A DNA stretch of 64,000 nt from Psococerastis gibbosa (lineage: Eukaryota > Arthropoda > Insecta > Psocodea > Psocidae): the NCBI GenBank assembly GCA_963971405.1, contig OZ020488.1, positions 22,835,089 through 22,899,088 on the forward strand, in the 5' to 3' direction. A program made the position numbers and the translations under genes. The notes under the pieces are model-generated. The model saw only the letters and a program-made list of their open reading frames with translations. It was not told the origin of the DNA and searched no databases. Within the stretch, counting starts at the first letter, position 1. Each line of letters opens with the position of its first letter. Positions 32,775-58,350 of this stretch are shown one piece after another.

Positions 32775-35700
32775 TTAGGCATCATTATCTTCCAGAAGAG
32801 CGAACTTGTTGCTCGCAACTACTTGGTTTCTTTCATCGGAGCTCTCCTCCGACTCCTCAGCCCCGCCGTCCGATCCTCCGTGGTTCTCGTCTTCATCGTC
32901 GTCATCTTCCTCTGATATGACACCAACATACAACTGCTTATCTTCGTCAACTTTTTTTGCTTGAATCCACGCAATTTCATCTACTTCTGGATGTTTTTTC
33001 CAAAATTCTGCAACATAAATTTAATTTTTGAGAGAGGTTAGAAAGTTAACTTTTTTTTAATACTTGATTGTACCGTAAGTATGCAATTGGTTTGCTTAGC
33101 TTACCCATTTTGGAGTGATAATCCGGAGATTTCAAAATTAGGCAAATTTTTCCATCTAGGGCCATCCTTAGAATATTATTAGCAGCCCTATAAGAATCGA
33201 GACGAGCTGCTTTGGCCGTGTAAAAACCGCGTTTTTTAGCCCAGCCTGAAATAAAAACAACAAGTAAATCCAAGCTTCCATGTGCAGGATATTGACTGTC
33301 AAAAAGATTAAAATAGTTGTAACTTGATTTGTACAAAATAACGGTCACTGAGGATATCAGGTCAAAGGAGTAACAAAACGGTCGCCAATTAGTGTCCGGC
33401 CACATTCTAGGTATTAAAATGAAGAGAAACATTTCTTCTACCTTATGACATCTCATTATTATGACTCTACGATTTAAATTTTAAGAGAAATTTGACTTTG
33501 TGCAAAAAGAAAAAAAACTTCGGGGGTCCATTACCTCTTAAACGAAGTCTTCAATGATAGTATTACGATCACAATTTCCAGTGAAATTTAATAATACATA
33601 TCACATGTTGGGTGGGGCCAGAGGAACCCAACCAAATCTCACGTAATGAGACTATTCTGGCAACCAGTAAACTTGTGCGATGCTAGAGAATAAACTCACC
33701 GTCACACACGTCCATAGCTGACCAAGAATCGTCGTCTTCGGGATGCTGGATTGCTAGAAGCTTGACTATGTCAAGGCGCTCACACAGGTATTTGACAGCA
33801 GTAAATGGTTCCCTCACTTGTGCGATGGGGTAGCTCCCAGTCAAAATCTGTAAAACATGAACATTGCAGCTAAAAGTGGCTCCATCTTATTGGTAAGCTT
33901 TCCTACTCATACGGTAGATCTTGATAGCTGACAAATAGCCTGCAGATTAGTATGCTGCGATACATTAATATTTTTCTGAGTTAGCTGACAAATGGAAGGA
34001 AGTACACAAGACAATCCACCATAGCAATGAATAATTATAAAAAAAAAAAAACATTACAAATATATTGAGGTTTTCAAAGCAATAACTGAATAATCCCAGG
34101 GAGAAACTTTGGTGTAAGATGTAAAAAATGCGCAAAAAGTTGTTGTTGTTTTTGAGATTCTGGCATCAGTTGGCTCGCATTAACATGTCACAATGTACTG
34201 TCCTTTATAATTAACGTTACATTAGTAAGTTAAACCAAAGTTGGTACGAATTCTTTTGTAAATGTAATCAAGAAAGATTTGCTTCTAATCATAATAAACA
34301 ACAAAGGAAGGATTCTAATTCTCCCCATAAATAACGTTTAATTTACTAAATGTATTAATATCCATATGTTTATATTCTTGATGATGCCGAAACATTTACC
34401 TATTTAACTTGGCATTATACTCCAAAACTTAATTCGAAGTCATTAGGTGTTACATAGTCCGCTATAGCGGCATTTTTATCTAATGTTCCACTAATTACTT
34501 TAACCAAATTTGTGACCTGTTTCTTACTCAAAACTCTTATTTATATTAGTTTGTTACAAAATTAAAAGTTTTCATAGTATATTTTGTCCTTATATTTAAA
34601 AAAAAAAAATCAAATAAATACATAGACATTGCTCAAGGTTAGAGTTTCCGGTAAGGGTTATTGGGAAGTTGAAATGACAGATCATGCAAATAAAAAAAGA
34701 CTGCCGCCATTTAAACAAAAAAGGTTTAGTACAGAGAGATCTAAAGACTGCTTTACAGGACAAATAGTACAGTATTGTAGAATCAGCCCGTTTTATTGGA
34801 ACAAATTATTTGACTTTTAACGTACCTGCAGAGGTCTAGGGGTAGTTGACGGGAACACAAGCCCAGGGCAGTCGCAAAGTCTGACGTTATTAGTTAGGAA
34901 TATCGTCTGGAAATGCTTGGTATGGCCGGGCGTTCTCGACACACTCACAACCTATAACCAGTAACCACAACATATGCGTATTATTAAATGTATATCCATG
35001 TGCATATATTCCTCATTATGCCAAAAGCCCTACTCGAAAAACTTACCGATTCAACCTTAGGGTTGTTTGTAACTGTATATAATAGAACAGTAAAGTTTAA
35101 CTATCGAAGCAACTCGACAATGCTACGTAAATCAAAGTCAAAACACAGTTCTCAGACGTTGCAACCTAAACGAAGCAGTCGCAATGGACAATGTTGCATG
35201 AACTTGTCATGGTTCAAATGTGGGACAACATGCGTAGGAAACTACCCATCCGCCATAACGACTAAGTACACACGGACGATTCGGTCGCCAGTGATCAGCT
35301 GAGAAAATCGTCTTGGGAAATAAGAAATGGTGCAACATCTGGCAAACTGCAGCCTACTGCAGCAGATTTCAAATTTCTGTAGCTGGTTCACGGTTTTCTC
35401 CTCGTGTCACCCAGGACAAGCGAGCTAAACTTTTACTTTTTAATTTCTGTGATAATTCTTGTCTTGTGTTGGAAAAAACATATATATTATATTAGGCTTA
35501 TACGTGTCTTGTGTTTTTTTATTGCTTTCCAATTTATACGTAGTAAAAGGAAAGCTTTGTGACGGTCGAAATTTTCGATTCCGAGATTTCAACGGATTTA
35601 CACGTTTTAAGGTACCAGGAACCCAAAAAAGTGTTTTTTACGCAATGTCTGTCTGCCTGTCGTTCTGTCTGTGCGTCGATTTCCGGGCAAACTACTCGGT

Positions 35701-38700
35701 CGATTTTGATGAAATTCGGCATGTAGGTTCACAAATACCTCCGAACATTTTTTTTTTATTTCGGGCTAACTTAATTTGGGGGGGTTTATTCTGAAAAAAC
35801 TCCAAAAAAACGTCTAAAACAATTATTTCTCAAAAACGGCTCCAACGATTTCTTTTAAATTCACATATATTGTAGTCGTTATTAATGTTAACGAAATGCG
35901 GGGGGTCGCTTGCCCTTTGATAGGTTGCTTCTGGGGGTAAAAAAATAAAAATAACTAAATTTTATTGAAAAATGACTAAAAAATAATTTTTCTGCGAAAC
36001 CTTTCTATCGATGATTTCTAACTTCAGGTATGTTTTAGGTGTTAAATTGAGTAACGAAACCGGACAGGTTGCTTTCCCAGAAAAGCATTTGGTTTTGTAA
36101 AAAAAAATGTTTTTTTGAAAAAAATGATAGAAAATTGACGCTCAAATGCATTGCGTGCCCTGCCAGTATTGCTGTGTGGTAATGTGTTGGTCTGACCTAT
36201 CTAGAATTTACCTCACCTCCAGTGACGTCAGGTGGACAAACCCCGTTGGTCACCCGTGAATAGTCAGTGAATCACCAGTGACCGAATCGTCCGTGTGTAC
36301 CGGGCATACAAATTTTACATTTCATTGTGGTACAGAGTAACAATTGCACCATGGTGTTTTTTACAACTCATACATATATAGCTGTAACTCTAGATTTTTT
36401 ATTATCATTAGCGTAAAAAATATGCAATATTCGTATTGGCGTGAAGTGTACACCGATGCAGAGTCTTCTACACTGATGTTAAACTAGGCTAATAAATTAT
36501 TAATTATTATTTATATATTTTATTATTAATTATAAATTATGTTACCTTCTTGCCCATTATAGCGTTCATAAGGGACGACTTGCCAACATTGGGCTGCCCA
36601 ATACAACCAATAGTGAGAATGCCTCCTTGGAACTTGACGTGCTCCTTAAATCCCGTGTCTGTCGGCATGTCGACAATCTTTCGTTCGGGAAGTTCATCTT
36701 CTTCATCAGCATGCTCCGAGCTCATTTCTTCCTTGATCTTTTCATGCCATGATGTTAAATCAACTAAAGCAGAAAGAAAGGCATTGGCAGTGACATAGAA
36801 TCTTTATAAATATTTCCTCTGCAATAACTCAAATACAGCCGATTATTGGAAAATCAAGAAACATTCACTTCCTTCTAGAGCAATCCTTTAAGCATTGATG
36901 ATTGTAAGGTGCGAGCTGGACAACACTTAAACCTCTGTGCAATTAAACCCATTGGACAATTTGAACATTCCAAAATAGGCTAGTGGCTATGCCTCTCCCC
37001 TGAAACTCTCGTAGCCAGTATATATATGAATTCTTTATTAAATCTGCCTCGAAGCATCCATTGATCCATGTGTATCACCGTAATTCATTATTCCCCGAAA
37101 TAACCGAGAAAATTGCTGGTGCTGGTGGTCTGACTCACTCTTTATAGGGTTAAAGAGCAATTAGCTAAATATGTTATAAGCGGGGATTCCACCGACCGGC
37201 TGGGGCTAAATACAAAAACGGTGACGTGGTAGCAGACATTCTAGACTTAGGCGGGGTTTCCACCGACCTCGCATTGCAGAATGCAAATGACATTGACGGA
37301 AATTATAATTTTTGTTTTATAGAAATCTATTAAAATGTTTGTACTTAGGCGCCCATTCCACCGATCGGCTAGGGCTATTTACAAAAAAGGTGACGTGGTA
37401 GCAGACATTCAAGACTTAGGCGGGGTTTCCACCGACCTCGCATTGCAGAATGCAAATTACATTGACGGAAATTAGAATTTTTCTTTTTATAGAAATCTAT
37501 TAAAATGTTTGTACTTAACATATCCCATGACGCCATATTTTAATTTTAGTTTGTTTGTGATTTTACTGTATGATCATTGATCAATTTTAACTATGGCATA
37601 GAGGAAAATAAACATTTCCGTCAATTCTCCAAAGCGAGGTCGGTGGACCCCGCCTAAGTCTTGAATGTCTGCTACCACGTTACTGTTTTTGTAAATAGCC
37701 CTAGCTGGTCGGTGGAATGGGCGCTATAAGGCGCATATTCCACCGACGTCAATAGTCTAAATAATGCTAATATTGACGTGGTAGCAGACATTTTTACACT
37801 GTCTTTAATGTCTGCTACCACGTCAATAAACACTATTGACGTCGGTGGAATAAGCGCCTATGTTATGGATTACCTTGCCCGTTGACAATGTTGTCACAAG
37901 CCTCGTACAGCTTCAGAGCACCTTCGGCTGCCATTCTCTGCCTCCCCCGCCGCCTCCTACTTTGCATACCTGACAACATTTAATCTTCTATAAAATGGGC
38001 TACATGGGCTTAGGCGGGGTTTCCAAATACGTCAATGGTCAATGAGAAATATGGTTTTGACGTGGTAGCAGACATGTTTAGTATGTCTTTAATGTCTGCT
38101 ATAAAACGTCAATTTCATATTTCTCATTGACCATTGAGGTATGTGGAAACTCCGCCATACGCTCATCGCCGTCATTGATGTATTGTCAGAAATGCATTTA
38201 TTTTCTCCTAAATGTAGTTGTCAATTTTCTGGTCAATACACAATTATTATTGTTATTATTAAATATTTAACACTTAATAATTATCAACATGTACACATGG
38301 TATAATACCTGTACATACATGAGCAATGTATTCTTCCAACTTTTTTCTGTTATCGTACGGATGCTGTTCAATGAACAAGAATAGAATTCTCTTTCATCAT
38401 TATACGATATACAATACATGCATCCATATTAGTAGGATATATATACTATATAATGAATCAGAATATTATGCTGTGTAATTTGCATACATTAATTTCTTAA
38501 TAATTTATTTTAATTTAGTGCAGAGCTTACAAATTAAAATGGAAGATACATATTTTTGGCGATGGCAATAAGAATCTATGGTGCATAACTACTGTAAAAA
38601 AAATAGTTTGGTTTGGCCCTTGGAGCATAGTACTTGGCACACAATTTAATCCAGCTCAGCCAGGAATGATGTTACTGATATTTCATATTTGACTTATGAA

Positions 38701-41700
38701 CGCACCTGTTTTACTTTGGGTGGCTACGTTGTCCCTCAAATTATAAGAAGGGAATGACGTGAAAGTGATAATCCTTAGTGTCGGAAATCTCTCCATAAAA
38801 TAATGCTTCCATGCAACTACTACGTGGGCCGGAACCAGGTCAATTTTATTCATGACCAAAATCATTGTCTTCCCCAATTCATCAGCAACAAACTTATAAA
38901 CTGATGGCGGAAACATCAAAGCCTAAGAAAAACACTAATAGTTAAGCAGGAAACCGAACATATTAATATTCAAATATGCATTGGACGAATTACTGGGGCT
39001 GTCGACCCATTTTTATTGGCATGAAGTCAGATTAACAAACTCAGTAATTAATCAAAATTGTATTGTGCCGTCTATTCCCACTCAAGGAAGGAGTAAATAG
39101 TAATTTATCGAATCCATATGGCTTTAAACGCTGGACAGACATACGAGTGAAGAACCAGTAGAATCCGGGCTGATGGGCCGTGGTCGAGATGAAAGTGAAC
39201 TTCCAAACGTTTCGTCAACATCTGCGGTCGACATCCCCTTGCAAGCACAACATCGGCAAAAAAAACTCAAACAAGCGATTATACAGGTTTAGGTTCCACT
39301 CCATGCAATTGAAATGACATAATCAGCATAATTATTCACATTACGACCAACAAAGTGACTTTTATTAACAGTGACTAGAAACTGTTACTACGCATAAGCG
39401 TCGACCTATATAGCAGGTTGTAGGCGACTTTACCGGAAAACGAGCGTCGACAATGATTAAAACTACATCCGATATTTCCAGAACACGCCAAAGCTGCCGC
39501 CATGTTTCCAAATTTAATTCAAAATAGCTCAGATTCTTTGCTCCAAATTCATTTTCGATTTCAGCAACGTACTTCTACAAAGAAAAAAGAAAAACAACAA
39601 ATAAGTCATCCGTTCTACAATATAATTTTTACACGAAATTGACCTAACAATTAGTGAACGCCGAGTCGGAGTCCCCCCGCCCCCCTTCCTGCGGGACACC
39701 AACGCCACTCGTTTTTTGTACAAAGCAGAATTTTTCATAGTAAATATTTATTGTTAAGCAAGAAGAAAGATCTTAGGCGACTATTCCACCGACGTGGATT
39801 TTCAATGTGAATGTGTCATGACGTGGTAGCAGACATCATTAATAAGTCTCTGCCATATTTTAAGGAGACTATTATGTAGATACTTAACTTATCTATTATA
39901 AATTAAGTTATAATATGGTAGAGACTTATTAATGATGTCTGCTACCACGTCAAGACACATTCACATTGAAAATCCACGTCGGTGGAATAGCCGCCTTAGG
40001 CATTAGGCGGGGATTCCAGCAACGTCAATAGTGATATTAAATATTTAATATTTTTTGACGTGGTAGCAGACAGTTTTAGACTGTCTAAAAATGTCTGCTA
40101 CCACGTCAATAAACATTTAATATCACTATTGACGTTGTTGGAAACCCGGCCTTAGAAGAAATATTTCTATTTTTTTTTTTTTTTTTTTTTTTTTGCCGTC
40201 ACAGACACCGATTGGCCACAATTGGCGATTCGGTTGTCAGTAAACAAAAACTGAGAGTTCCGGAAAAACTTGCTATAACAACCCGAATTAGTAAAACCCA
40301 AATAATCGTTAAGAAATTAACTTTGTCTAAGAAACCCACTTGTGTTAGTATAAAACCCTAGGCGCTTTCGGCAAGAACTGCCATATACAGAGGGAAACCC
40401 ACTAGCACAGTTACACCTTATTTGCGATTTGAGACTTGCTCAACTCGAGGAGAAGATGCGAATGTGACTAGGGAGAGGACACCTTGGTTTATATAGGACT
40501 GGGAGCGGGGGGTGGGGATGGGAGGGGGCGTGGCGGGTTACCTATTCCTAACCTACTAGCTAGATCTATTAAAGGGGATGATTGTGTGAATGTTATGTCG
40601 TTTGTTAATTTCTCCTTACTGTGTAAAGCTCTTTTAATTTCAACATTTTCAAAAAAAATTAAAGTGTAACTTTTCTTTATATTCTAATTTACCCCCCAGA
40701 GAGCATAAACCCGGAAACCAATGAATCATATTTCAGGATACAATACATAGAAAAAATCACAGAAAAAATAAGTAACCTCATTTCTTCTACAACAGACAAA
40801 ACACCAGCCCCGTACAACCGCAACAATTTAGCCAATAAATTCATGAACTGCAAAACCAGACCGGAAAAGGAAAAAGGCAATGGAGTTTATCGTCTAAATT
40901 GTAACGATTGTAACGCAATTTACATAGGCCAAACAGGCAGAAGCTTTAAAACTAGGGTCAAAGAACATATAACAGGTATAGGAGACACCAACACCACATT
41001 CGCGAAACACCTTAACTCAGAAAATCACACATTCGATCCTCACAATTGGACAGCCCTACACAAAATAAAGAAAAGTTACACTTTAAATTTTTTTGAATAT
41101 GTTGAAATTAAAAGAGTTTTAAACAGTAAGGAGAAATTAGCAAACGACATAACATTCACACAATCATCCCCTCTAATAGATCAAGCTAGTAGGTTAGGAA
41201 TAGGTAACCAGCCACGCCCCCTCCCATCCCCACCCCCCGCTCCCAGTCCTATATAAACCAAGGTGTCCTCTCCCTAGTCACATTTGCATCTTCTCCTCGA
41301 GTTGAGCAAGTCTCAAATCGCAGATAAGGTGTAACTGTGCTAGTGGGTTTCCCTCTGTAGGCAGTTCTGTAGTAAGTTCTTGCCGAAAGCGCTCAGGGTT
41401 TTATACTAACACAAGTGGGTTTCATAGACAAAGTTAATTTCTTAACGATTATTTGGGTTTTACTAATTCGGGTTGTTGTAACAAGTTTTTATAAAACTCT
41501 AAGCTTTTGTTATTTTTTTTTTATTAAAATGAAATACCACGAAGTCACGAGTAATCTAATTATTTCGGTTGTCAGTGATCCTCTGAGCAATTGGTCATGG
41601 GAGCAATGAGAAATGGTGCAAAACCGCAGCAGATTTCTGTAACCGTGGTTTATCGCAGCTACAATCTGCTGCAGCCAACTATGGTTTTGCCAGATTTTGC

Positions 41701-44700: not shown

Positions 44701-47700
44701 TTCAAGAAAGGTTTGTAAGTTTATACATATATGCATTGGCGTAAATAGGGGGGTCCTGGGGGGGGGGGGAGGCTAAGCCCGCAGGCCCCCCCCCCCCAGG
44801 ATTTCTGGTGACAAAGACGTTATGGAGGTGAAAGGCATAGTATCCACAATAACGAAAGGGAAATTAATTCTTGATACTGGTATGCTTATTTTACATTAAA
44901 GACATCATGAAAAAATCAACACATTGACTTATTTTCACGAAAATATATTACTCAAAATAATGCTTAAGATCCCAATAGGCCTATTTCATACCTATTTTTT
45001 CAAGCTTTTTCTTCGGGGGAGACCCCCGGGCCCCCTCAGTGGTAGGTTTATTTGTCGGTACAATCTCAACTGTACTGCTTGCAAAATTCGTAAAACCTCA
45101 CTAATTTGGACCTAGGCCTATATACATCAATTTTCCTTCTCCGGGGGAAACCCCCGGCCCCCCATTCTCCAGGGTTTAATATGCGTAAAACCTCACTAAT
45201 TTGGGCCTATTTATCAATTTTTTTTCTACGGGGGAGACCCCCGGACCCTCCTATCACCAGGGTATAAAATGCGAAAAACCTCATTAATGTCGATACTCTC
45301 AAAAATAATAAAAATCCGCCTATGCTTAGCATACTACATGAAAACAAACTTTATATCCAGTTTAATTTGTAACATCCTTGGTGTTCAAAAATGAAAAAAA
45401 TCATATATAAGGCGCATATTCGACCAACGTCAATAGTGATAGTAAATGTGGTATTGACGTGGTAGCAGACATTAAGACAGTCTAAAAATGTCTGCTACCA
45501 CGTCAATACTACATTTACTATCACTATTGACGCTGATGGAGTATGCATCTAAAGGGGACCAACATTTAAAAAAAATTCCGGGGTATTCTGAGGAACTATT
45601 TAACAATTTCCGAGGAATACGGCAGAAGTCATTTGGCAGCCCTGACATTAACTAGTCCGGGAGCCAGGGGGGGGTCTCACTTGACGAAGTTCCGGAGAAG
45701 GTTTGAGCTCATGAGGCGCTTAGGATGTGTCTCTAGTCTGTAAAAAACCTTTTCTTACGAGCCGGCTCTGGGGCTTTTGGGTGCTACAAATTTTTTAAAG
45801 TGCCTAATTTTTGGAAAAACTTGACGAACTGGTGGGTCAAAAATTTTCAAAGAAAACTACGCTGAACTATGTACAGTAGACGAAATCTTGAAATCAGAGG
45901 ATTCCCAGGGGACTTTCACCTCAAAAGAAGCAATCCAAAAAGGGTGGGAACGGGAAAAATTTGACAAAGAGGTGGGCTTATAATTTCCTTATATATGATT
46001 CCCATCGTTCTCCTGAGCACAAAAACAAAAAATAAGAAGTTTCTGTTGGGACATTCATCCCTTAAGAAGGGGACAAATTTTCGTCAAATTAAACTTGACA
46101 AACGAGATTTTGAGAAATCTCAATTTGGAACAGTGCATAGTAGTTTCTAGTATGTCAAAACGTAATTATAAGAAAATTCCGTTAGGGCTTTCAACCCTTA
46201 AGAAGCAATCCAAAAAAGGAGGGAACGGGAAAAATTTGTCGAAGAGGAGGGCTTATAATATCCCCCTATCTGAAAACCATGTTTTACCCAAGTCTGAAAA
46301 CTGAAAATAAGAATTTTTCGTTGGGGCTTTCATCCCTTAAGAGTGGTTCAAATTTTCGTCAAATTTTTCTTGACGAACGAGATAATGACATTTCTCAATT
46401 TTAAATAATACCTAGTAGTTTTTAGTATGTGAAAACGTAATTATCAGACAATTCCGTTGGGGCTTTCACCCCTTAAGAAGCAATCCAAAAGGGGTGGGAT
46501 CGGGAAAAATTTGACAAAGAGGTGGGCTTATAATTTCCCTATGTATGATTCCCACCGTTCTCCTGAGCACGAAAACGAAAAATAAGAAGTTTCTGTTGGG
46601 ACATTCATCCCTTAAGAGGGGGATAAATTTTCGTCAAATTAAACTTGACGAACGAGATTTTGAGAAATCTGAATTTGGAACAATGCATAGTAGTTTCTAG
46701 TATGTCAAAACGTAATTATAAGAAAATTCCGTTGGGGCTTTCATCCCCTAAGAAGCAATCCAAAAAGGGAGGGAACGGGAAAAATTTGTCGAAGAGGAGG
46801 GTTTATAATTTCCCCTTATCTGAAAACCATAGTTCACCCAAATCTGAAAACTGAAAATAAGAATTTTTCGTTGGGGCTTTCATCCCTTAAGAGTGGTTCA
46901 AATTTTCGTCAAATTTTTCTTGACGAACGAGATAATGACATTTCTCAATTTTAAATAATACCTAGTACTTTTTAGTATGTGAAAACGTAATTATCAGAAA
47001 ATTCCGTTGGGGCTTTCACCCCTTAAGAATCAATCCAAAAGGGGTGGGACCGGGAAAAATTTGACGAAGAGGTGGGCTTATAATTTCCCTATATATGATT
47101 CCCACCGTTCTCCTGAGCTCGAAAAAGAAAAATAAGAAGTTTCTGTTGGGACATTCATCCCTTAAGAAGGGGACAAATTTTTGTCAAATTAAACTTGACG
47201 AACGAGATGTTGACAAATCTCAATTTTTAACAATTCATAGTAGTTTCTAGTATGACAAAACGTAATTATAAGAAAATTCCATTGGGGCTTTCACCCCTTA
47301 AGAAGCAATCCAAAAAAGGAGGGAACGGGAAAAATTTGTCGAAGAGGTGGGCTAATAATTTCCCCTTATCTGAAAACCATGGTTCACCCAAGTCTGAAAA
47401 CTGAAAATAAGAATTTTTCATTGGGGCTTTCATCCCTTAAGACTGGTTCAAATTTTTGTATAATTTTACTTGACGAATGAGAGGATGACAAATATCAAAT
47501 TGAAACTATGCGTAATAGTGTCTAGTATGTGTAAACTTAAATATAAGAGAATTCCGTCGGGGCTTTCACCCTTTAAGACGCTATTCATAAGGGATGTCAT
47601 GGTGTGGTACCGGCCAAGAGTATCGGTGATGAAGTAAAGGAAAGCACATGTGGGCGGGGCTATATGTCAGCATTATAACCCAAGAACAAAATAGCACATA

Positions 47701-50700
47701 GGACATTGATTTTGGGACGGCTGTCCATATACGAACTATTAAGCAATTTCATCTGAGACTTGCTCTCCTGAGCCTATAGCAATAATTGAGGACTTGAACT
47801 CTCTATTTTACGGTATGATTGAAAAAGACCGTATTTTCCCTTTGCCTCGAAAACACGATATGAAGTTATTGCTTTAAAAGCATGCATTCCAATCATGGCT
47901 TTAGAGACATCGGGTCCCATTCTCTTAGCCAAGAGGGTGGCGTCAATAGCTCGCCTAATAAACACTCGTCCCAAAATCAATGTAGTAGGTGTTATTTTGT
48001 TCTTGGGTTATATTGCCGACAAAAAAAAATTGGTTGTTTGTAAGTCGGTTGTAAAGTCGGTTTACGGACGATAGTTTTACGTGACAACCCCTAAATCAAC
48101 TTAAACATAATTTACTAACTTACCCTAAACAATATATGGCTGGAAAGAGTACCGTAGTTTGCATTTTTTAAATAGATAATAATGGGGCCGAAAGAGTCCT
48201 ATTTCGGTTGAAAATCGTGTGCACCCCCTGACGTTTCACACCCCCAAAGCGAAACCCCTTACTTGATCACCACAAGTATAGCATGGCCTGAAAGAGGAGA
48301 AATAGACGAAGACATGGGTATAATTTAAATTAAGGTAGGCCTTCCTCGTCAGCCTAAAAAAATTGCTTTAAACCCCCCCCCCCCCCCCATGCAATTCAAA
48401 TGGGATTGCTGCTAATGCCTCATTTTGTGTTCCACTCGTGTTGAAGGGGTGACGGGGTGAATTAATTATTAATTAATAATTAAAATATTTATTTATACTC
48501 GTTTGAAACCATAATTTGTACTGCTCCTAATGAAATTTAAAAATTAAAAATTAATTTCGGTTGAAAATTGCAGGCTGTGGATTTTTTTTGCTCAATAGAT
48601 GCATATAAATTGGAAAGTACCTGGCGGGGGGCTAAGCCCGGGGTTTTTGGTGACAAAGACGTTATGGAGGCAAAAGGCATAGCATCTTCAATAACGAAAG
48701 GGAAAGTAATTCTTGGTATGCCTAATTTACATGCATCATAAAAAAATCGACATATTGATCAAGTACTTTCACAAAAACTTGTTACTCAAAAAGCTTAAAA
48801 TTCCGATATTTCAGACTTATTTTCTCAAACTTTTCTAAGTAGGAGACCCCCGGGCCCCCCTCCGTGGTAGTTTTATTGGTCGGTAAAAACTCAACTTTAC
48901 TGCTTGGAAAATGCGAAAAACCTCACTAATTTGGGCCTATTTGTCGATTTTTTTTTCCGGGGGAGAGCCCCGGTACCCCCTTTTTCTAGGGTATAACATG
49001 CGCAAAACCTCACTAATTTGGGCCTATTTATGAATTGCTTTTCTTTTTTTCTCCAGGGGAGACCCCCGGGCCCCCTTTCTTCTTTCTCACTTCAGAAGTG
49101 AATGAGTAATGATTCCCGGTTTTGGGGTCCTAAATCCCCCCCCCCCAGAAATGTTGGGAATTTACGCCAATGACTATATTACACTTATATTATCAATTTT
49201 TTTCCCCGGGGGAGACTCCCGGGCCCCCCTCTTTGGATTACGTGCAATATTGTTTCTATAAGATCTAGTCCGCATATCAACGTTGTCTGGCTGTGTCCCC
49301 ACTAATTTAGCTTTTTATATGTACCTATGGTAACATAAATAGCCTACGAGTAACACCATAACCTGCATAACCTGGGATAGGATCACAGCCACCCCCGAAG
49401 AAAATCGTGGCTAAGGCTTGCATTCCACTAATGACAATCACTCATAACAAAGATGAAATAATAAGACAAGGTAGGGCGCACCAAAGGTCTTGCGGGGGGA
49501 GGGGGGGGGGCGCAGCAAAAGTTATTTACGCTACTGCTCAAAACGTGTAAATCCGGTGAAATCTTGGGGCTCCTTATAGTACTGCGTATAAATTGGAAAG
49601 CAAAAATTTCTACAATTTATACTTCATAGGACTGTTATTGGCCGGAAAACTGGCCAAGGGCCGAGAAATTACCCAACATTAAAATTTTTGGTTTTCTCTA
49701 ATTTCGCCCCTAATTATACAATTCGAAAATTTTCTTCAATTTATGCTTCAGAGTCCTGTCATTGGTCGGAAAAATTGACCAAGAAATAGCCCAAAGTTAA
49801 ATTTTTGGTTTTCTCTAACATAGCCCCTAATTACACAATTCGTAAACATTTCTTCAATTTATGCTTCAAAGATCTCTTATTGGTCGGAAAAGTGGCCAAG
49901 GAAAACTGACAAAGGAATCCTTATTTATATTGCAGCAAACAGGGGGGCACGGGGGTCTCCCCCGGAGGTTTTTTTAAAAAAATAGGCCCGAAATAGTGAG
50001 GTTTCACGATTATAACAGCCGCAAAGCTTATAATTTACACAGGAAGACATATTCACGTTACTTATGTTATTTATGGGGAGGGGGGAGGCTGCAGCCCAAT
50101 ATGCCTCCTTGCTTAAGGTCTTGGTGGAATGGGAAGAAAAAGTTTGTAGAATAAATAATAAAATAGTAGGTCTAATGGAAAACGTCCCAGTCCCTGTCTG
50201 GTTTTTCCGGTACCCAGTGCATTCTGCTGCCTCTGGTGTACCGCAGTACTGACGAAAAATATAATTTTTAGTTTTAAATGAGATGAAGTTCCTAACTTCA
50301 TAATAATTATAGTCAACTTCGAAAACAAATTGATATTTAATATTTTTATTAATTACATAGATTATCTTATTATTTTTGGGAATCGAAGTGCGCCCCCACA
50401 ATGCTGTGCCCCCCCCCCCCGCGCCGCGGGGGTTGCGGGGTCTTATTTACGCCACTGGTTGTGAGGTCCCAGGAGCCCAAAAAAGTGTTTTTTACGAAAA
50501 GTCTGTCGCTCTGTCACTCAATCTGTCTGTCTGTTCATCGATTTCCAGACAAACTACTCAGTCGATTTAGATGAAATTTGGCATGTAGGTTCATAAAAAT
50601 CATACCTCGCGTCAATTTATTTTGGGCTATCTCAATTTGGGGGGTTTTAGTCTCAAAAATTCCAAAAACGTCTACAAAATTTATTTATCAAATACGGCTC

Positions 50701-53700
50701 CAACGATTTATTTTAAATTCACATATATTGTAGTCGTTATTAACGTTAACAAAATGCGGTGGGGCACTTGCCCCTTGATAGTTTGCTTCTGAGAGTAAAA
50801 AATAAAAATAACTAAATTTTCATTAAAAATGGTTAAAAAATAATTTATCTGCGAAACCTTTCTATCGATGATTTGTACCTTCAGGCATGTTTTAGGTGTT
50901 AAATTGAGTAACGAAACCGGACAGGTTTCTTTACCAAGAAACTATTTTGTTTTGGGCAAAAACATTTCTCTTTCAAAAATTTTGAAAATTCACGCTCAAA
51001 TCCAATGCGTGCCCTGCCATTATTACTGTGAGGTATCTAGAATTTACCTCACCTCCAGTGACGCCAGGTGGACAACCCCTCCGCGCCCTGATATATCCAA
51101 AATTTAAACATAGGAAAATTATTTACCTTGAAATTACTCATTTTCTCTGTCTACTACTTGATAAATTGGAAAACATGTTCGAGTAAACTCGGACCAATTC
51201 TTTGATTGTTGATTGCTTTCTTCAATATACAATATATATCATATGAATTTAAGTAGTATCACATCTCGTTCCAATTTTTCTTGTGTCCATATTTATTTAT
51301 TGAAACAATATTATAGAGTGTGTAGTCAAGGGACTTGTAATTCCTTAATTTGTTGTTAAATATTTGTTTATCTAGTGGCGGTAGGCTACTATTTTTAGTT
51401 AGTTGTTAATTTTACATTTCGCTGCAGCCCAGTAAGCCTCTCATGGCTAGGGTCGTACAGTAGCTATGAGTTAGTCATTAGACATGGCAACCATTAGGAG
51501 GTTTACTTCGTAGTAAGAGTATTGAGAATTGATTCAGCATGCAAAATATTCAATTCAGCACACTATTGGCTGTTCAGTTAAATGCGGCCGAACCGAGATG
51601 TGAAAAAAACACTTAAAAACGCCGGGGCAAGAGGGCCGGTCTAGACCAGTGGTTCCCAAATGGTGTGGATGTTTTGCCCTTTCTTAAATGGGTTTAATAG
51701 GTGATGTCCAGCTACTCTTTCCAGACATATATTTAGGGTAAGCCACCACTGTATCGGCGGAAAACTGTTTTAAAGGGTATTTTCCAATTTATATGCATCT
51801 ATTGAGCAAAAAAAATCCACAGCCTGCAATTTTCAACCGAAATTAATTTTTAATTTTTAAATTTCATTAGGAGCAGTACAAATTATGGTTTCAAACGAGT
51901 ATAAATAAATATTTTAATTATTAATTAATAATTAATTCACCCCGTCACCCCTTCAACACGAGTGGAACACAAAATGAGGCATTAGCAGCAATCCCATTTG
52001 AATTGCATGGGGGGGGGGGGGGGGTTTAAAGCAATTTTTTTAGGCTGACGAGGAAGGCCTACCTTAATTTAAATTATACCCATGTCTTCGTCTATTTCTC
52101 CTCTTTCAGGCCATGCTATACTTGTGGTGATCAAGTAAGGGGTTTTGCTTTGGGGGTGTGAAACGTCAGGGGGTGCACACGATTTTCAACCGAAATAGGA
52201 CTCTTTCGGCCCCATTATTTTCTATTTAAAAAATGCAAACTACGGTACTCTTTCCAGCCATATATTGTTTAGGGTAAGTTAGTTAATTATGTTTAAGTTG
52301 ATTTAGGGGTTGTCACGTAAAACTATCGTCCGTAAACCGACTTTACAACCGACTTACAGACAACCAATTTTTTTTTTGTCGGCAATATAACCCAAGAACA
52401 AAATAACACCTACTACATTGATTTTGGGACGAGTGTTCATTAGGCGAGCTATTGACGCCACCCTCTTGGCTAAGAGAATGGGACCCGATGTCTCTAAAGC
52501 CATGATTGGAATGCATGCTTTTAAAGCAATAACTTCATATCGTGTTTTCGAGGCAAAGGGAAAATACGGTCTTTTTCAATCATACCGTAAAATAGAGAGT
52601 TCAAGTCTCAGATGAAATTGCTTAATAGTTCGTATATGGACAGCCGTCCCAAAATCAATGTCCTATGTGTTATTTTGTTCTTGGGTTATATTGCTGACAT
52701 ATAGCCCCGCCCACATGTGCTTTCCTTTACTTCATCACCGATACTCTTGGCCGGTACCACACCATGACATCCCTTATGAATAGCGTCTTAAAGGGTGAAA
52801 GCCCCGACGGAATTTTCTTATATTTAAGTTTACACATACTAGACACTATTACGCATAGTTTCAATTTGATATTTGTCATCCTCTCATTCGTCAAGTAAAA
52901 TTATACAAAAATTTGAACCAGTCTTAAGGGATGAAAGCCCCAACGAAAAATTCTTATTTTCAGTTTTCAGACTTGGGTGAACCATGGTTTTCAGATAAGG
53001 GGAAATTATTAGCCCACCTCTTCGACAAATTTTTCCCGTTCCCTCCTTTTTTGGATTGCTTCTTAAGGGGTGAAAGCCCCAATGGAATTTTCTTATAAGT
53101 ACGTTTTGTCATACTAGAAACTACTATGAATTGTTAAAAATTGAGATTTGTCAACATCTCGTTCGTCAAGTTTAATTTGACGAAAATTTGTCCCCTTCTT
53201 AAGGGATGAATGTCCCAACAGAAACTTCTTATTTTTCTTTTTCGAGCTCAGGAGAACGGTGGGAATCATATATAGGGAAATTATAAGCCCACCTCTTCGT
53301 CAAATTTTTCCCGGTCCCACCCCTTTTGGATTGATTCTTAAGGGGTGAAAGCCCCAACGGAATTTTCTGATAATTACGTTTTCACATACTAAAAACTACT
53401 AGGTATTATTTAAAATTGAGAAATGTCATTATCTCGTTCGTCAAGAAAAATTTGACGAAAATTTGAACCACTCTTAAGGGATGAAAGCCCCAACGAAAAA
53501 TTCTTATTTTCAGTTTTCAGATTTGGGTGAACTATGGTTTTCAGATAAGGGGAAATTATAAACCCTCCTCTTCGACAAATTTTCCCCGTTCCCTCCCTTT
53601 TTGGATTGCTTCTTAGGGGATGAAAGCCCCAACGGAATTTTCTTATAATTACGTTTTGACATACTAGAAACTACTATGCATTGTTCCAAATTCAGATTTC

Positions 53701-54846
53701 TCAAAATCTCGTTCGTCAAGTTTAATTTGACGAAAATTTATCCCCCTCTTAAGGGATGAATGTCCCAACAGAAACTTCTTATTTTTCGTTTTCGTGCTCA
53801 GGAGAACGGTGGGAATCATACATAGGGAAATTATAAGCCCACCTCTTTGTCAAATTTTTCCCGATCCCACCCCTTTTGGATTGCTTCTTAAGGGGTGAAA
53901 GCCCCAGCGGAATTGTCTGATAATTACGTTTTCACATACTAAAAACTACTAGGTATTATTTAAAATTGAGAAATGTCATTATCTCGTTCGTCAAGAAAAA
54001 TTTGACGAAAATTTGAACCACTCTTAAGGGATGAAAGCCCCAACGAAAAATTCTTATTTTCAGTTTTCAGACTTGGGTAAAACATGGTTTTCAGATAGGG
54101 GGATATTATAAGCCCTCCTCTTCGACAAATTTTTCCCGTTCCCTCCTTTTTTGGATTGCTTCTTAAGGGTTGAAAGCCCTAACGGAATTTTCTTATAATT
54201 ACGTTTTGACATACTAGAAACTACTATGCACTGTTCCAAATTGAGATTTCTCAAAATCTCGTTTGTCAAGTTTAATTTGACGAAAATTTGTCCCCTTCTT
54301 AAGGGATGAATGTCCCAACAGAAACTTCTTATTTTTTGTTTTTGTGCTCAGGAGAACGATGGGAATCATATATAAGGAAATTATAAGCCCACCTCTTTGT
54401 CAAATTTTTCCCGTTCCCACCCTTTTTGGATTGCTTCTTTTGAGGTGAAAGTCCCCTGGGAATCCTCTGATTTCAAGATTTCGTCTACTGTACATAGTTC
54501 AGCGTAGTTTTCTTTGAAAATTTTTGACCCACCAGTTCGTCAAGTTTTTCCAAAAATTAGGCACTTTAAAAAATTTGTAGCACCCAAAAGCCCCAGAGCC
54601 GGCTCGTAAGAAAAGGTTTTTTACAGACTAGAGACACATCCTAAGCGCCTCATGAGCTCAAACCTTCTCCGGAACTTCGTCAAGTGAGACCCCCCCTGGC
54701 TCCCGGACTAAACATTCCAAAGCCGCAAAGCTCGGAGCTCTGTTTAGCCCCTTACCTATGTCGCCTGCAACTCGCTGATGCTTCTTAGCCTTTAACTGTA
54801 ATTTCTTTGCTTTCCCACTAAACGGAGCTTTCCTTCCACCTGGCAT
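32775..54846 (-). CDS. GNL1: GNL1, circularly permuted nucleolar-type GTPase
   Basis: Guanine nucleotide-binding protein-like 1 (HSR1/YlqF-related family), 589 aa against 607 in human. Exons in gene order: 54846-54756, 43107-42960, 41992-41782, 39574-39434, 38922-38706, 37969-37874, 36763-36546, 34951-34826, 33847-33700, 33245-33105, 33007-32775; every phase fits. GTPase motifs are permuted: G4 NKID at 222-225 comes before the P-loop GQPNVGKS (357-364), G2-type RTPGHTK (380-386) and G3 DCPG (401-404). Other family marks are the basic N-terminus MPGGRKAPFSGKAKK, RRPPW-type IPKRPPWNFEMS, NLETWRQLWRVLE, WAKKRGFYTAKAAR and an acidic tail with an EEDDDDEDE run. Its exact role is uncertain in the family; nuclear/nucleolar GTP binding and ribosome-related work are usual proposals. 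Exon 1 is 11.6 kb from exon 2 because of nested transposons. An in-frame ATG 33 bases upstream (54879) is an alternative start. Confidence 0.93.
34952..36545. other. GNL1 intron 7 with nested TIR element
   Basis: 1.6 kb. An element of about 1.04 kb, near 35267-36305, has inverted ends GTACACACGGACGATTCGGT, and repeat R1 copy 2 sits inside it. A related end, CAATCGTCCGTGAGTGCCGG, occurs at 41736-41757 in intron 3. Target duplication not resolved. Confidence 0.5.
35478..36170 (+). repeat. Dispersed repeat R1, copy 2
   Basis: Plus-orientation copy of the roughly 700-bp family, with the TGTCTGTCTGCCTGTC tract and the segment ending near GTAACGAAACCGGACAGG. Compare 21150-21860 and 50455-51090. 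Confidence 0.7.
37180..37724. mobile_element. Large hairpin MITE with duplicated left arm (H0)
   Basis: In GNL1 intron 6. Outer ends GGGGATTCCACCGACC and inverse GGTCGGTGGAATGGGC. The left arm occurs twice (about 37182-37348 and 37349-37515, period about 167 bp) and the right arm once. The inner box GACGTGGTAGCAGACA and its inverse are present. It directly abuts H1. Confidence 0.7.
37730..37858. mobile_element. PIF/Harbinger-like hairpin MITE (H1)
   Basis: 129 bp with ends GGCGCATATTCCACCGACG and inverse CGTCGGTGGAATAAGCGCC. Flanked by TAA (37727-37729) and TAT (37859-37861). The inner box GACGTGGTAGCAGACA occurs once in each orientation. It ends 14 bp from the donor of GNL1 exon 6 (37874). 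Confidence 0.75.
38013..38156. mobile_element. PIF/Harbinger-like hairpin MITE (H2)
   Basis: 144 bp in GNL1 intron 5, 43 bp from the acceptor of exon 6. Ends GGCGGGGTTTCC and inverse GGAAACTCCGCC. Flanks TTA (38010-38012) and ATA. The left inner box is intact; the right one is broken to GTCTGCTATAAAACGTC. Confidence 0.75.
39776..39995. mobile_element. PIF/Harbinger-like hairpin MITE (H3)
   Basis: 220 bp in GNL1 intron 3 with TTA duplications at 39773-39775 and 39996-39998. The arms pair over about 75 bp around an AT-rich loop, and the inner box is present in both orientations. Confidence 0.85.
40006..40151. mobile_element. PIF/Harbinger-like hairpin MITE (H4)
   Basis: 146 bp only 10 bp from H3, with its own TTA duplications at 40003-40005 and 40152-40154. 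Ends GGCGGGGATTCC and inverse GGAAACCCGGCC. The arm sequence differs from H3 except for ends and inner box. Confidence 0.85.
40276..41483 (+). mobile_element. Penelope-like element fragment
   Basis: In GNL1 intron 3. A 3' ORF fragment (about 40697-41256) contains a GIY-YIG endonuclease domain: GVYRLNCNDCNAIYIGQTG then RSFKTRVKEH, as in Penelope-like retroelements. The reverse transcriptase is missing. About 400-bp pseudo-LTRs lie in inverted orientation at 40276-40672 and 41072-41483 (shared words such as AGTCCTATATAAACCAAGG), an arrangement known for this class. The ORF runs into the right pseudo-LTR before its stop. Non-autonomous and likely dead. Confidence 0.85.
42081..42329 (+). mobile_element. 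LINE 3'-end remnant
   Basis: In GNL1 intron 2. Frame YRWLGHVERMPEDQIPKK, then RPRNCWKDELDADLRELGV and DDWRSAVEQAKARQGL to a stop. This is the conserved C-terminal tail of RTE/jockey-like non-LTR reverse transcriptases. The catalytic domain is absent. Confidence 0.8.
43150..43530 (+). mobile_element. LINE 3'-end remnant, second
   Basis: Start of GNL1 intron 1. Broken frames give VVLYASET, VLTNQ, RKVHELYGQLTSKEAGFG and RRRTLGRPRLR, again the tail of a non-LTR reverse transcriptase with stops and frameshifts. Confidence 0.7.
44742..45315 (+). repeat. R2 repeat block, copy 1
   Basis: Begins with G runs and GACAAAGACGTTATGGAGG, then about four units of 90-110 bp, each holding AAAACCTCACTAATTTGG and GGGGGAGACCCCCGGGCC. 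A related block is at 48630-49250. Confidence 0.7.
45411..45549. mobile_element. PIF/Harbinger-like hairpin MITE (H5)
   Basis: 139 bp inside the hAT-like element, with TAA at 45408-45410 and 45550-45552. Inner box GACGTGGTAGCAGACA and its inverse both present; arms otherwise unlike H1-H4. Confidence 0.8.
45905..47580 (+). repeat. 137-bp tandem array, 550-bp higher-order repeat (left arm)
   Basis: Monomer marks fall near 45910, 46050, 46186, 46320, 46460, 46597, 46736, 46870, 47010, 47147, 47286, 47425 and 47560. Every fourth monomer is most alike (for example 46095-46304 against 46645-46854). The mirror array is at about 52785-54460. Confidence 0.8.
48630..49250 (+). repeat. R2 repeat block, copy 2
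   Basis: Start of the foldback centre. Same GACAAAGACGTTATGGAGG leader and 90-110-bp units with GGGGGAGACCCCCGGGCC as at 44742-45315. A short inverse piece is at 49935-50010. Confidence 0.7.
50455..51090 (+). repeat. Dispersed repeat R1, copy 3
   Basis: In the foldback centre. About 630 bp closely similar to 35478-36170, including the TCTGTCTGTCTGTTC tract and GAGTAACGAAACCGGACAGG. Confidence 0.7.
52785..54460 (-). repeat. 137-bp tandem array (right arm)
   Basis: Inverse of the left-arm array at constant coordinate sum (about 100364), so the monomers pair one to one with those at 45905-47580. Confidence 0.8.
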
Positions 54847-55439
54847 TATTGTCAACTCTTTAAATAATTTAACCGCCAATTAAAATTAAAATTAAGAAAA
54901 ACTAAAAAGTTAAAAACGAATGACACTTATTTTGTAAACAATCTTAACCATTTTTAATTTTGATTTTTGATACTCGAATACTCGAATTCCTTGATAGGAT
55001 GAGAGACAACTCTCGAACTTCAAAACAAAATTTCTTAAATTTTCTTAAAATAAAATAAGTTTTATAACAAATTTGCAAAGCACGAAGTTAAATAATATGT
55101 GAAAACATGTGTTTTATAACAATTTCTTCATGTTAAGTTGATTTGAGTGCCTTTTAGTCATATTTTGAAAACTTAAAAGTTGTCTGTCAGTGTCAGTCTG
55201 TTGAACTCTATAGTCTATGGTTGTTTTCAGAAACCGCTAGAATCAAACCACGTCAGATAAATTACTTTTTTGATTTTGTACAAATCATAAATCATCGACA
55301 GCTTCAAGCTTCTACTCTGAGAGTAAGTAATAAACGTTTTCCTAAATTATTTAATTGAACCCACCCTACAATAAGCCAATAAGCGATTACACCCAATTGT
55401 AAGTATCTCATGCCTTCCTCTCTCTTTCAGTTTCACGAA
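54847..55439. promoter_or_regulatory. Divergent promoter region, GNL1 / MANF
   Basis: 593 bp between the start codons of GNL1 (-) and MANF (+). Both genes must be driven from here. AT-rich, with no clear TATA box; a pyrimidine tract lies just before the MANF start. If the upstream in-frame ATG of GNL1 is used, the spacer is 560 bp. Confidence 0.6.
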
Positions 55440-58350
55440 ATGTTTCGTTTTTCGGCAGTGGACCTTTGGAGGTGGTCTATTTTTCTTTGGGCTGTTCTGG
55501 TTGCCACGACTTCAGCTCTAAAAAAGGAAGATTGTGAAGGTAAGGAAATTCTGGGTTTTAATTAATTACTTCATAATATTAAGCTTGCGCTACATAGGAC
55601 TATGTTGTATTCATATTTTCAAACCGGGTTACAAACCATAGGGGTGCAGAAGATGCCGAATGTTCTGCACGTGACGTCACTACGCTTGAAATGATTGCGA
55701 AAATTCGAGATAGTGTTAGGAGACCTTAGGTTGAAACTGCTTGAGATGGCTGAGGCAATGGGCATATCTAGCGACTGAGTTAATTATATCTTGCATGAAC
55801 ACCTGAGAAGCTGTCAGCAAGAAAGCTCTGATGAATTTATTCCGTGTCTCATGACAGTAGATGAAACCTGGATGCATTATTACACCCCAGAAACAAAACA
55901 GTGGGTAGCCAACCGGGAACATGCGTCAAAGTAGGCAAAAACTGTCCGGTCACCAGGAATTTCTGCTTGATCGCCTCAAAGCCCCATTTGGCCAATAAAA
56001 TAGTTTTCTTCATGACAATCTGCCAGCTTATTCTTCAGCATTGGTGACCTCAAAAATTCAAAAACTAAGGTACTAACTACTACCCCACCCACCCTTTTCA
56101 CCAGACCTGGCACCATCTGATAATTTTGTACCAAGTTTTAATTAAGGAATGGCTCGGAGGCAAGTGGTTTGGTTCAAATGATGACGTGATACGAAAGACA
56201 AACGCATTTTGGCTTATTGATCATGCCTCGTATGTATTAACCAAGAGAGTAAGCTTCCAAAATTAAGTAATGCCCCAAATCTAGCCTTTCTAGTGCCGTC
56301 TCCCGCGGTTTTAGGTTTGTTTCTTCAGAAACATTGTGCAATAGTTGCATAGTAAATGCCTTTTTGTTATTTTCAAACCAAATATTGCTCCAAACGCTCA
56401 GGAGCAGCGTTTCTCATTGGTTGACAGAGGACTGCCGCTACCAACAAGAAGATGAAACGGAGTTGTTATCAGTCCTAAAATTAATCGAAAAACGCACTTA
56501 TTCTATTCATTTATTTTCAGTTTGTATAACGGTCGTAGAGAAGTTCAGCACATCATTGTCCGATTTCGATAGAAAGGATCCAAAAAGAATAGACACTAAG
56601 TTTAGGCAGTTTTGTGAAGGAACGAAGGGGAAGGACAACCGATTTGTAAGTAGGCCTAACATACAAAAATCAAGGTCCCACCCCTTTCGGGTCAATGACC
56701 AATTAGGTCTGGTCCGGAATAGCAGCAGTGGCGCACCGCTATGTACTGGAACCTCATTGCATAAAAATAAACACTGTAAAGAATTCAGTAATGCACTAAG
56801 CCCCCCATGTTCCAATGCATAGCGCCGCACTAAATAAATAAATATATATTAATATTATTTATATATATATTTCTGTTAAATTATACAATACAAGTAATTA
56901 ACAAGAAAGTATAAAGTAAAATTGTCAAAATATCTTCAAAATCAGGTAGTTCTGTCATTGTCATTGTGCTAGTGCCTCAGTGACAGAGTAGAAAGCTTTC
57001 TCTAAGAGATGGTTTCTAAGCAATTTAGCCGCTCTCAGTTCAATCAGGAGTTTCTAAGGTAGGCGAAACTAGTTTCCTCACGAAAACGTTTCGAATTGTG
57101 GCGAGTCCTTAAGAATATATATATGTAAATTGATTATATATCACTTGATTCAAAAACAGAATAGTAAGAGTTAATTATTCAATATGTAGTAAATTGTGCA
57201 CCGTGGGCGAATCATTAGATGTTTTCAAAAAATGAAATTTTTGGTACTTGCAATAGGGAGAAACATTTCCAGGTGGTTGGATCGGGTTTTTAGTTGTTCA
57301 GTTGAAATTAAAAATCAGAGGATCACATAATTCAAAGGAAATATTAATTGAAGCGCCTAGAGGCCAAGGGGTGCAAATGACAAAAATAAACATTCGAGAT
57401 ACTTGAGGCTAAAGTTTGTAACTCAAATTGAAAATGGATAGGATTACCCCTTTTCCATGGATTCTAGCATTGTCAAAATGACAGATCCCGATGTTCCCAG
57501 GATAAAGAGCAGCTAGAGTAACAGCATGGTGCACTTAACTCCAAACGCAAAAAATTATACTTGCACCTCTTGGTTTCTAAACGCTTCAATTGGAAACTAC
57601 TAACTAGGTAGCTTTATAAGTAGGAATAAGCCGTTTATGTCTAGCGATAATGATACACCTAGAATCTAGATTCATTTCAACTAGTCCGAATTTTGTTCCA
57701 GTGTTACTACTTAGGAGGCCTCGATGAGTCGGCAACTGGCATCTTAGGAGAACTGTCCAAACCTCTGTCGTGGAGTATGCCGGCAGACAAAGTTTGTGAG
57801 AAGCTGAAGAAGAAGGATTCCCAGATTTGTGATTTGCGATATGGTAAGTGATCACCATCAATTTTTGAGACCAGTTCCATATATGACGTGGTACTTGTTA
57901 GCTACCGCTGCCTAGCAAATTTAGAAAATTTTATTCTTAATATTACTACCATACTCTTTGACATACTGTACCTGGACTTTATTTAATTGCATCAAAGAAC
58001 ATATTTTTGTGTTTGTAAGCTTATAAACTAGGCATATTTTCAGTCACAACTACTGTATGTACTGAATAGTGCACACACTATGGCCCGTTCTCACCTTATA
58101 AATCCGTATATACAGTATATATATGTGTGTGTGTGTGTTCCGTCATCTACGAATGCATCTTTATGTTCCTGAAATAATTTCAGATAAGCAAATTGACTTC
58201 TCCACAGTTGACTTGAAAAAGCTCAAAGTGAGGGATCTGAAGAAAATTTTAAATGACTGGGATGAGGAGTGTGACGGCTGCCTTGAGAAGTCGGACTTTA
58301 TCAAGCGGATAGAAGAGTTAAAACCGAAATACGTGCGAACAGAATTATGA
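55440..58350 (+). CDS. MANF: MANF neurotrophic factor / ER stress protein
   Basis: Mesencephalic astrocyte-derived neurotrophic factor, 177 aa. Exons 55440-55539, 56521-56645, 57702-57843, 58184-58350; phases close. Signal peptide residues 1-26 (ends TTSA). The mature chain starts LKKEDCE. All eight family cysteines are present: EDC, VC, FC, CYYLGG, VC, IC and the CDGC (CXXC) of the C-terminal SAP-like domain. Conserved blocks include [20 protein letters not shown] and [19 protein letters not shown]. The C-terminal RTEL fits the KDEL-like ER retrieval signal of MANF. It acts in the ER lumen in the unfolded protein response and is also secreted. Head-to-head with GNL1. Intron 1 holds a dead mariner. 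Identity is near certain. Confidence 0.96.
55690..56245 (+). pseudogene. Mariner transposase remnant
   Basis: In MANF intron 1. Fragmentary frames match mariner: [19 protein letters not shown], a [14 protein letters not shown] block, SPDLAPSD and [13 protein letters not shown]. Stops, frameshifts and missing pieces show it is inactive. Confidence 0.75.
56646..57701. other. MANF intron 2
   Basis: Starts with a probable short MITE (about 56727-56834, ends GTGGCGCACCGCTATG and inverse CATAGCGCCGCAC), then a TATA-rich tract and repeat R3 copy 3 (56860-56990). The rest, about 57000-57700, shows nothing I recognise. Confidence 0.5.
56860..56990 (+). repeat. Dispersed repeat R3, copy 3 (uninterrupted)
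   Basis: Contains TTCTGTTAAATTATACAATA without insertion, then TCAGGTAGTTCTGTCATTG. It serves as the empty site for the TTAA-flanked MITE at 16450-16713. Confidence 0.75.

Follow-up and report, generated by a model that had tools for sequence, protein, structure and literature searches.

A young family of large foldback transposons with 3-bp target-site duplications in Psococerastis gibbosa, with one copy at the GNL1 locus

Introduction

In the psocid Psococerastis gibbosa, two nearly identical sequences of almost 3 kb face each other in opposite orientations a few tens of bases from the first splice donor of a gene that we take to be GNL1, from its similarity to the human GNL1 protein. What is this large hairpin, where did its symmetry come from, and what could have brought it there? 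We have analyzed the window that contains it, a stretch of 64,000 nucleotides (contig OZ020488.1, positions 22,835,089 to 22,899,088), and searched the 409-Mb genome for relatives. Coordinates given without a contig are those of the window.

Structure of the element and its gene context

A blastn comparison of the window with itself gave a single long inverted match, formed by the two arms of the element (Table 1). The original prediction had described a foldback with near-identical arms at 45653..54710, and the realignment bears this out, with 98.28% identity over 2,970 columns. As 36 of these columns are gaps, the arms differ by about 15 mismatches, i.e. some 0.5% substitutions. The match at constant coordinate sum, expected to run for about 2 kb, appears as an ungapped core of 2,100 nt at 99% (45668-47767 against 52597-54696). 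One large indel was also predicted and is present, but its size had been given as 35 bp and the coordinate sums, which pass from 100364 to 100398 between blocks I1 and I13, indicate 34 bp; the remaining gap columns are single-base indels. Each arm is composed of a 240-bp tip, about six tandem units of 275 bp and an inner domain that measures some 1 kb.

Table 1. Coordinates of the foldback element and of the neighboring exon in the window.
Feature	Position	Strand	Remarks
Target-site duplication, left copy	45650..45652	.	AAC, 3 bp
Whole foldback element	45653..54710	.	9,058 bp; ends TAGTCCGGGAGCC...GGCTCCCGGACTA
Left arm	45653..48621	+	inverted match to 54710-51776, 98.28%
Terminal domain (tip)	45653..45892	+	240 bp; TTGACGAA at 45681 and 45821
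Tandem array, left arm	45909..47578	+	about 6.1 units of 275 bp
Spacer between arms	48622..51775	.	apparently non-coding; longest stop-to-stop frame 173 aa (49925-50446, minus)
Right arm	51776..54710	-	inverted match to left arm
Tandem array, right arm	52786..54456	-	about 6.1 units of 275 bp
Target-site duplication, right copy	54711..54713	.	AAC, 3 bp
Inferred GNL1 exon 1, coding part	54756..54846	-	begins MPGGRKAPFSGKAKK...; donor GTAAGG starts at 54755

The spacer holds some modules akin to repeats found elsewhere in the window. A module at 44795-45248, just outside the element, is 78% alike to one inside it (48637-49073), and a dispersed repeat of about 700-800 bp has three copies (21027-21863, 35519-36243 and 50458-51202), the last of them within the foldback spacer and the one at 21 kb with inverted ends TGCTTTCCAATTTATA. 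There is also a family of short hairpin repeats, palindromes of about 130-150 bp at 45414-45546, 40005-40152 and 37733-37859, all within GNL1, the first being about 107 bp to the left of the foldback.

The motif TTGACGAA appears 29 times in the window, where 2.07 would be expected, and 25 of these occurrences are within the arms of the element. In the left arm it begins at positions 29 and 169, and further occurrences, in both orientations, lie in the 275-bp units; as these units are tandem copies, the excess is inflated. Between tip and array, 9-mers coincide at 43 positions; when the tip was shuffled 500 times, the mean was 4.1 and the maximum 42. For Galileo, one THAP-domain site is known from footprinting, and others have been identified in the tandem repeats of its TIRs (PMC3688188). 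In the element studied here, the TTGACGAA repeats are possible candidates for transposase-binding sites.

The gene is on the minus strand and its GNL1-like exon stretches are found at lower coordinates (DARFP at 39448, NKIDL at 38850 and GQPNVGKS at 36599). Among the four exon stretches scanned with Pfam, one (36540-36803) matched the GTPase domain MMR_HSR1 and the other three gave zero matches; compared with PDB sequences, the same exon matched other GTPases (EngA/Der, Lsg1), GNL1 not appearing by name. Judging from the order of the exons, the element would sit in intron 1. Its end at 54710 is separated from the first GNL1 donor by 45 intron bases (54711-54755), exactly the distance predicted. 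Inside a GNL1 intron we also found a fragment of a GIY-YIG (Penelope-type) ORF (40663-41256), adjoined by an inverted repeat (40243-40683 and 41062-41511, 92%).

A dispersed family with common ends

The terminal 16-mer TAGTCCGGGAGCCAGG was found at 60 places on 11 contigs, and its reversed control at none. Allowing up to two mismatches, the terminal 20-mer gave 63 places, 58 of them exact (control 1+1). By hand count, 54 of these 63 ends form 27 convergent pairs spanning 2.5-20 kb and the other nine are unpaired. We read the flanks of 25 pairs, the GNL1 copy included, and in 24 of them there is an exact 3-bp target-site duplication (none had a longer one), while base composition predicts such a duplication by chance in 1.7% per copy. 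The central base of the duplication was A or T in 24 out of 24. The mobile element that had been postulated does have other genomic copies with the same ends, and the hairpin at the GNL1 locus belongs to a young family of large transposons. The foldback structural class is characterized by very long inverted arms that contain tandem repeats and by dispersed copies that have common ends and target-site duplications, features that are all found here. The sole pair without a 3-bp duplication was L017/L018 (C21:3664602-3679119); at 5.5 kb, the palindrome arms of this copy are also the longest that were measured. In another foldback copy (L032-L034, C21:1484943-1502136) an insertion with inverted ends CATTGAATATATAACACTATAG, about 4.5 kb long, is nested.

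Could the hairpin have been created by an assembler that duplicated one arm in inverted orientation? Palindromes are hard to assemble, as indicated by the N runs inside two long related palindromic copies (L020 and L058), the length and structure of which are uncertain. However, the element at the GNL1 locus contains no N, its arms differ by the substitutions, the 34-bp indel and the single-base indels mentioned above, and it is flanked by a 3-bp duplication of its own, as are 24 of the 25 pairs (this one among them) at different sites, which makes such an artefact very improbable. A local inverted duplication of host DNA, i.e. a segmental palindrome with no transposon, would account for nearly identical arms and a spacer without a long frame, but is hardly conceivable when dispersed copies exist with identical ends, at 60 places on 11 contigs, and 3-bp duplications flank 24 of 25 pairs. 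We consider it highly probable that the element is a DNA transposon of the foldback (long terminal inverted repeat) kind, non-autonomous, moved in trans and inserted into intron 1 of GNL1, the interiors of the family having been reshuffled afterwards.

Age of the family and similarity of the arms

The tips of the different copies have a median identity of 99.17%. Two copies, E37 and E43, are divergent in the tip, and in E37 most of one arm is missing. When the genome was searched with the tip, the 40 matches scored out of 72 candidates were all 99-100% identical. A 13-mer of the end, with up to one mismatch, was found at 135 places (61 exact) against 86 for the control, with no excess of one-mismatch relatives. 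The near-identity of the scored tips and the lack of an excess of one-mismatch ends over the control point to a recent burst.

The arms of a single copy can be alike because the copy is very young or because gene conversion keeps them so, and the original prediction had left both alternatives standing. We compared the inner arm (about 1 kb) in 35 of 42 arms, the other seven being without the compared region. The mean identity within copies was 99.47% (17 copies), and 98.19% between copies. In nine of the 17 copies the two arms resembled each other more than they did any other copy, two were ties and in six this was not the case; on the basis of these nine, arm copying appears to happen within the family. 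The clearest case is E19, with identical arms and 98.79% to the nearest other arm. Its palindrome extends over 4.5 kb at 99.96%, and that of E17 over 5.5 kb at 99.89%. In E17 and E29 the blocks are arranged as if one half had been copied to the opposite side. The GNL1 copy is among the six whose arms are not mutually closest, with 99.29% identity between its own inner arms and 99.71% and 99.69% to the nearest arms elsewhere. For this copy youth alone would explain the identity of the arms and gene conversion appears unnecessary, although conversion is seen elsewhere in the family.

We have also followed the divergence between copies along the arm, using 22 of the 42 arms picked for equal array length. 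Throughout the outer 2.2 kb the values were between 0.56 and 2.05% with no clear trend. In the inner arm the successive bins going inward gave 1.45, 2.11, 3.64 and 7.57%, gaps making up 25% of the last one. Uniformity is therefore greater over the entire outer arm, together with its array, than in the inner arm. One possible cause is constraint by a transposase, and the pattern lends slight support to constrained tips.

Variable interiors and coding capacity

Twelve out of 20 copies were compared with a reference copy (E09). Their interiors differ, to varying degrees, by deletions, inversions, duplications and insertions, and extended palindromes or rearranged interiors were found in the 12 copies, again to varying degrees. 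Part of a 20-kb copy contains an internal tandem duplication, and the GNL1 copy is reversed with respect to E09 and is without a 3.6-kb internal block.

Stop-to-stop frames of at least 180 aa are present in four of the 21 fully read copies (195, 319, 180 and 195 aa). The sole frame longer than 200 aa in these 21 copies is the one of 319 aa, a GIY-YIG frame found in one copy, which we read as a Penelope-type insertion. The Pfam comparison took in ten frames of E09 and one frame of another copy, and the ten E09 frames had zero matches at E 0.1; Rfam gave none over 45000-55500. The impression from the GNL1 copy that no transposase is recognizable holds for the copies read, within this coverage. 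Because no gene for moving was recognized in them, the family probably borrows its enzyme from elsewhere.

A second end type and the possible transposases

Among the listed one-mismatch matches to the end there was a 432-bp element with ends TAGACCGGGAGCC and the duplication CAA. Its first 326 bases match the ends of larger inverted pairs at 79-81% (40 scored of 103 candidates), and one of these larger pairs starts with TAGACCGGGTGCC and has the duplication TTA. The sequence TAGACCGGGWGCC, representing this TAGACC end type, was found at 81 places against five for the control, and 62 of the 81 (hand count) form 31 convergent pairs of 0.4-19 kb. The flanks were read in two of these pairs and both had 3-bp duplications (CAA and TTA). 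Fourteen of the 31 TAGACC pairs are absent among the 40 scored of 103 matches to the 432-bp element, which does not imply a separate family. At one location about 1.5 kb separates a TAGACC element from a TAGTCC foldback (C3:49340444-49353563 and C3:49355036-49367961). The shared end motif and duplication length suggest that one mobilizing system may serve both end types.

As no transposase was linked to the TAG...CTA ends, we infer that mobilization takes place in trans, and several sources of the enzyme can be weighed. It may be, although we put this forward tentatively and with more doubt than conviction, that the TAGWCCGGGWGCC ends and A/T-centered 3-bp duplications mark an undescribed DNA-transposon lineage with its own transposase, mobilizing at least two sets of large elements with inverted repeats (58 convergent pairs of 0.4-20 kb), the foldback members of which would keep their arms alike by arm-to-arm copying.

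A transposase of the PIF/Harbinger (PHIS) type is an unlikely mobilizer. The canonical Harbinger target is TWA. Harbinger-type DDE_Tnp_4 domains are abundant in this genome and often lie in open frames (150 scored matches of 220 candidates), and canonical Harbinger elements produce 3-bp duplications (PMC12730594), the length found here. However, comparing the coordinates by eye, none of the 150 scored matches (220 candidates) was within a convergent pair of either end type, although non-autonomous copies need carry none. Moreover, the PHIS groups with 3-bp duplications use fixed trinucleotides, ANT, CWG or TNA, and the ends of PIF/Harbinger elements mostly begin with A or G (PMC4482050). The duplications of the GNL1 family follow no fixed trinucleotide (TNA in 4, ANT in 2 and CWG in 0 of 24), and the foldback ends start with T. 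As an observation apart, the DDE_Tnp_4 matches genome-wide are at least 150, many with equal scores and open frames, which suggests recent Harbinger activity.

That an Academ (AcademX) or a Zator transposase moves the family is likewise improbable. AcademX carries an XPG nuclease, and XPG_I had only six matches in the genome, none of them in the intervals, while the ISAzo13-type DDE model (Zator) had zero matches, its own control being equally silent. In favor of both, the length of the duplication agrees with the 3 or 4 bp of AcademX and the 3 bp of Zator (PMC10045372).

Other superfamilies, as usually defined, do not fit. The P superfamily, to which Galileo belongs, makes duplications of 7-8 bp and Mutator/MULE (Tetris, Muta1) of 8-10 bp, against 3 bp in 24 of 25 pairs and none longer. 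CACTA/EnSpm (CMCT) ends are mostly 5'-CA...TG-3' (PMC12730594), and here they are TAG...CTA. The Transposase_21 model (PF02992) gave zero matches and its control was silent too.

Whatever its origin, a transposase supplied in trans to the non-autonomous foldback would recognize the ends TAGTCCGGGAGCC, and probably also the TTGACGAA sites that recur in the tip (240 bp) and in the 275-bp units. It would excise the element and insert it with 3-bp staggered cuts at A/T-centered targets. The interior might then be shuffled, and the arms extended or made equal again, by repair of the excision gap, by slippage during replication or by copying from one palindromic arm to the other. Transcription of GNL1 would turn its copy into a long RNA hairpin, presumably removed by splicing; as the original prediction suggested, this hairpin might be a source of siRNA or a target of A-to-I editing, and the palindrome might act as a recombination hotspot.

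Comparison with known systems

The closest likeness in architecture is with Tetris, a foldback of Drosophila virilis whose long inverted arms consist of a tip, tandem repeats of about 220 bp and an inner domain, with a variable non-coding middle, sequence shared between tip and repeat, and a transposase that was not found. In contrast, Tetris has duplications of 8-10 bp and arms no longer than 1.7 kb, and Mutator is the system that its authors propose (PMC4079207), whereas in the GNL1 family the duplications are of 3 bp, the arms reach 5.5 kb and the copies 20 kb. Galileo, from the P superfamily, shares the very long TIRs with tandem repeats, some extended to 4.7 kb, and has further transposase-binding sites inside the repeats, sites that in the GNL1 family are putative. 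It differs by duplications of 7-8 bp with consensus GTATTAC and by a transposase segment retained in some copies (PMC4168063 and PMC3688188); the GNL1 family has 3-bp A/T-centered duplications and no recognized transposase segment. Muta1 and related mosquito MULEs also have long TIRs, subterminal tandem repeats and non-autonomous derivatives with heterogeneous interiors, but their duplications are of 8-9 bp and the subterminal repeats only 9-15 bp (PMC5225508). Finally, PIF/Harbinger, Pangu and NuwaI/II coincide in the 3-bp duplications, and Harbinger domains abound in the genome of P. gibbosa; yet these groups use fixed target trinucleotides, and about 93% of PIF/Harbinger TIRs are shorter than 60 bp (PMC4482050).

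Foldback transposons are a known kind of element. Searches of the open-access literature gave, among the titles and abstract openings listed, no foldback with 3-bp duplications, a result that leaves absence unproven, with Repbase and Dfam outside its scope. As the foldbacks Tetris and Galileo have duplications of 7-10 bp in the papers cited above, a young and dispersed clan with 3 bp would add a different mobilizing system to the foldback shape. The many similar copies with varied interiors are a natural series for how palindromic transposons grow and equalize their arms, and the copy in GNL1 offers a single gene where the effects of a long intronic hairpin on RNA could be tested.
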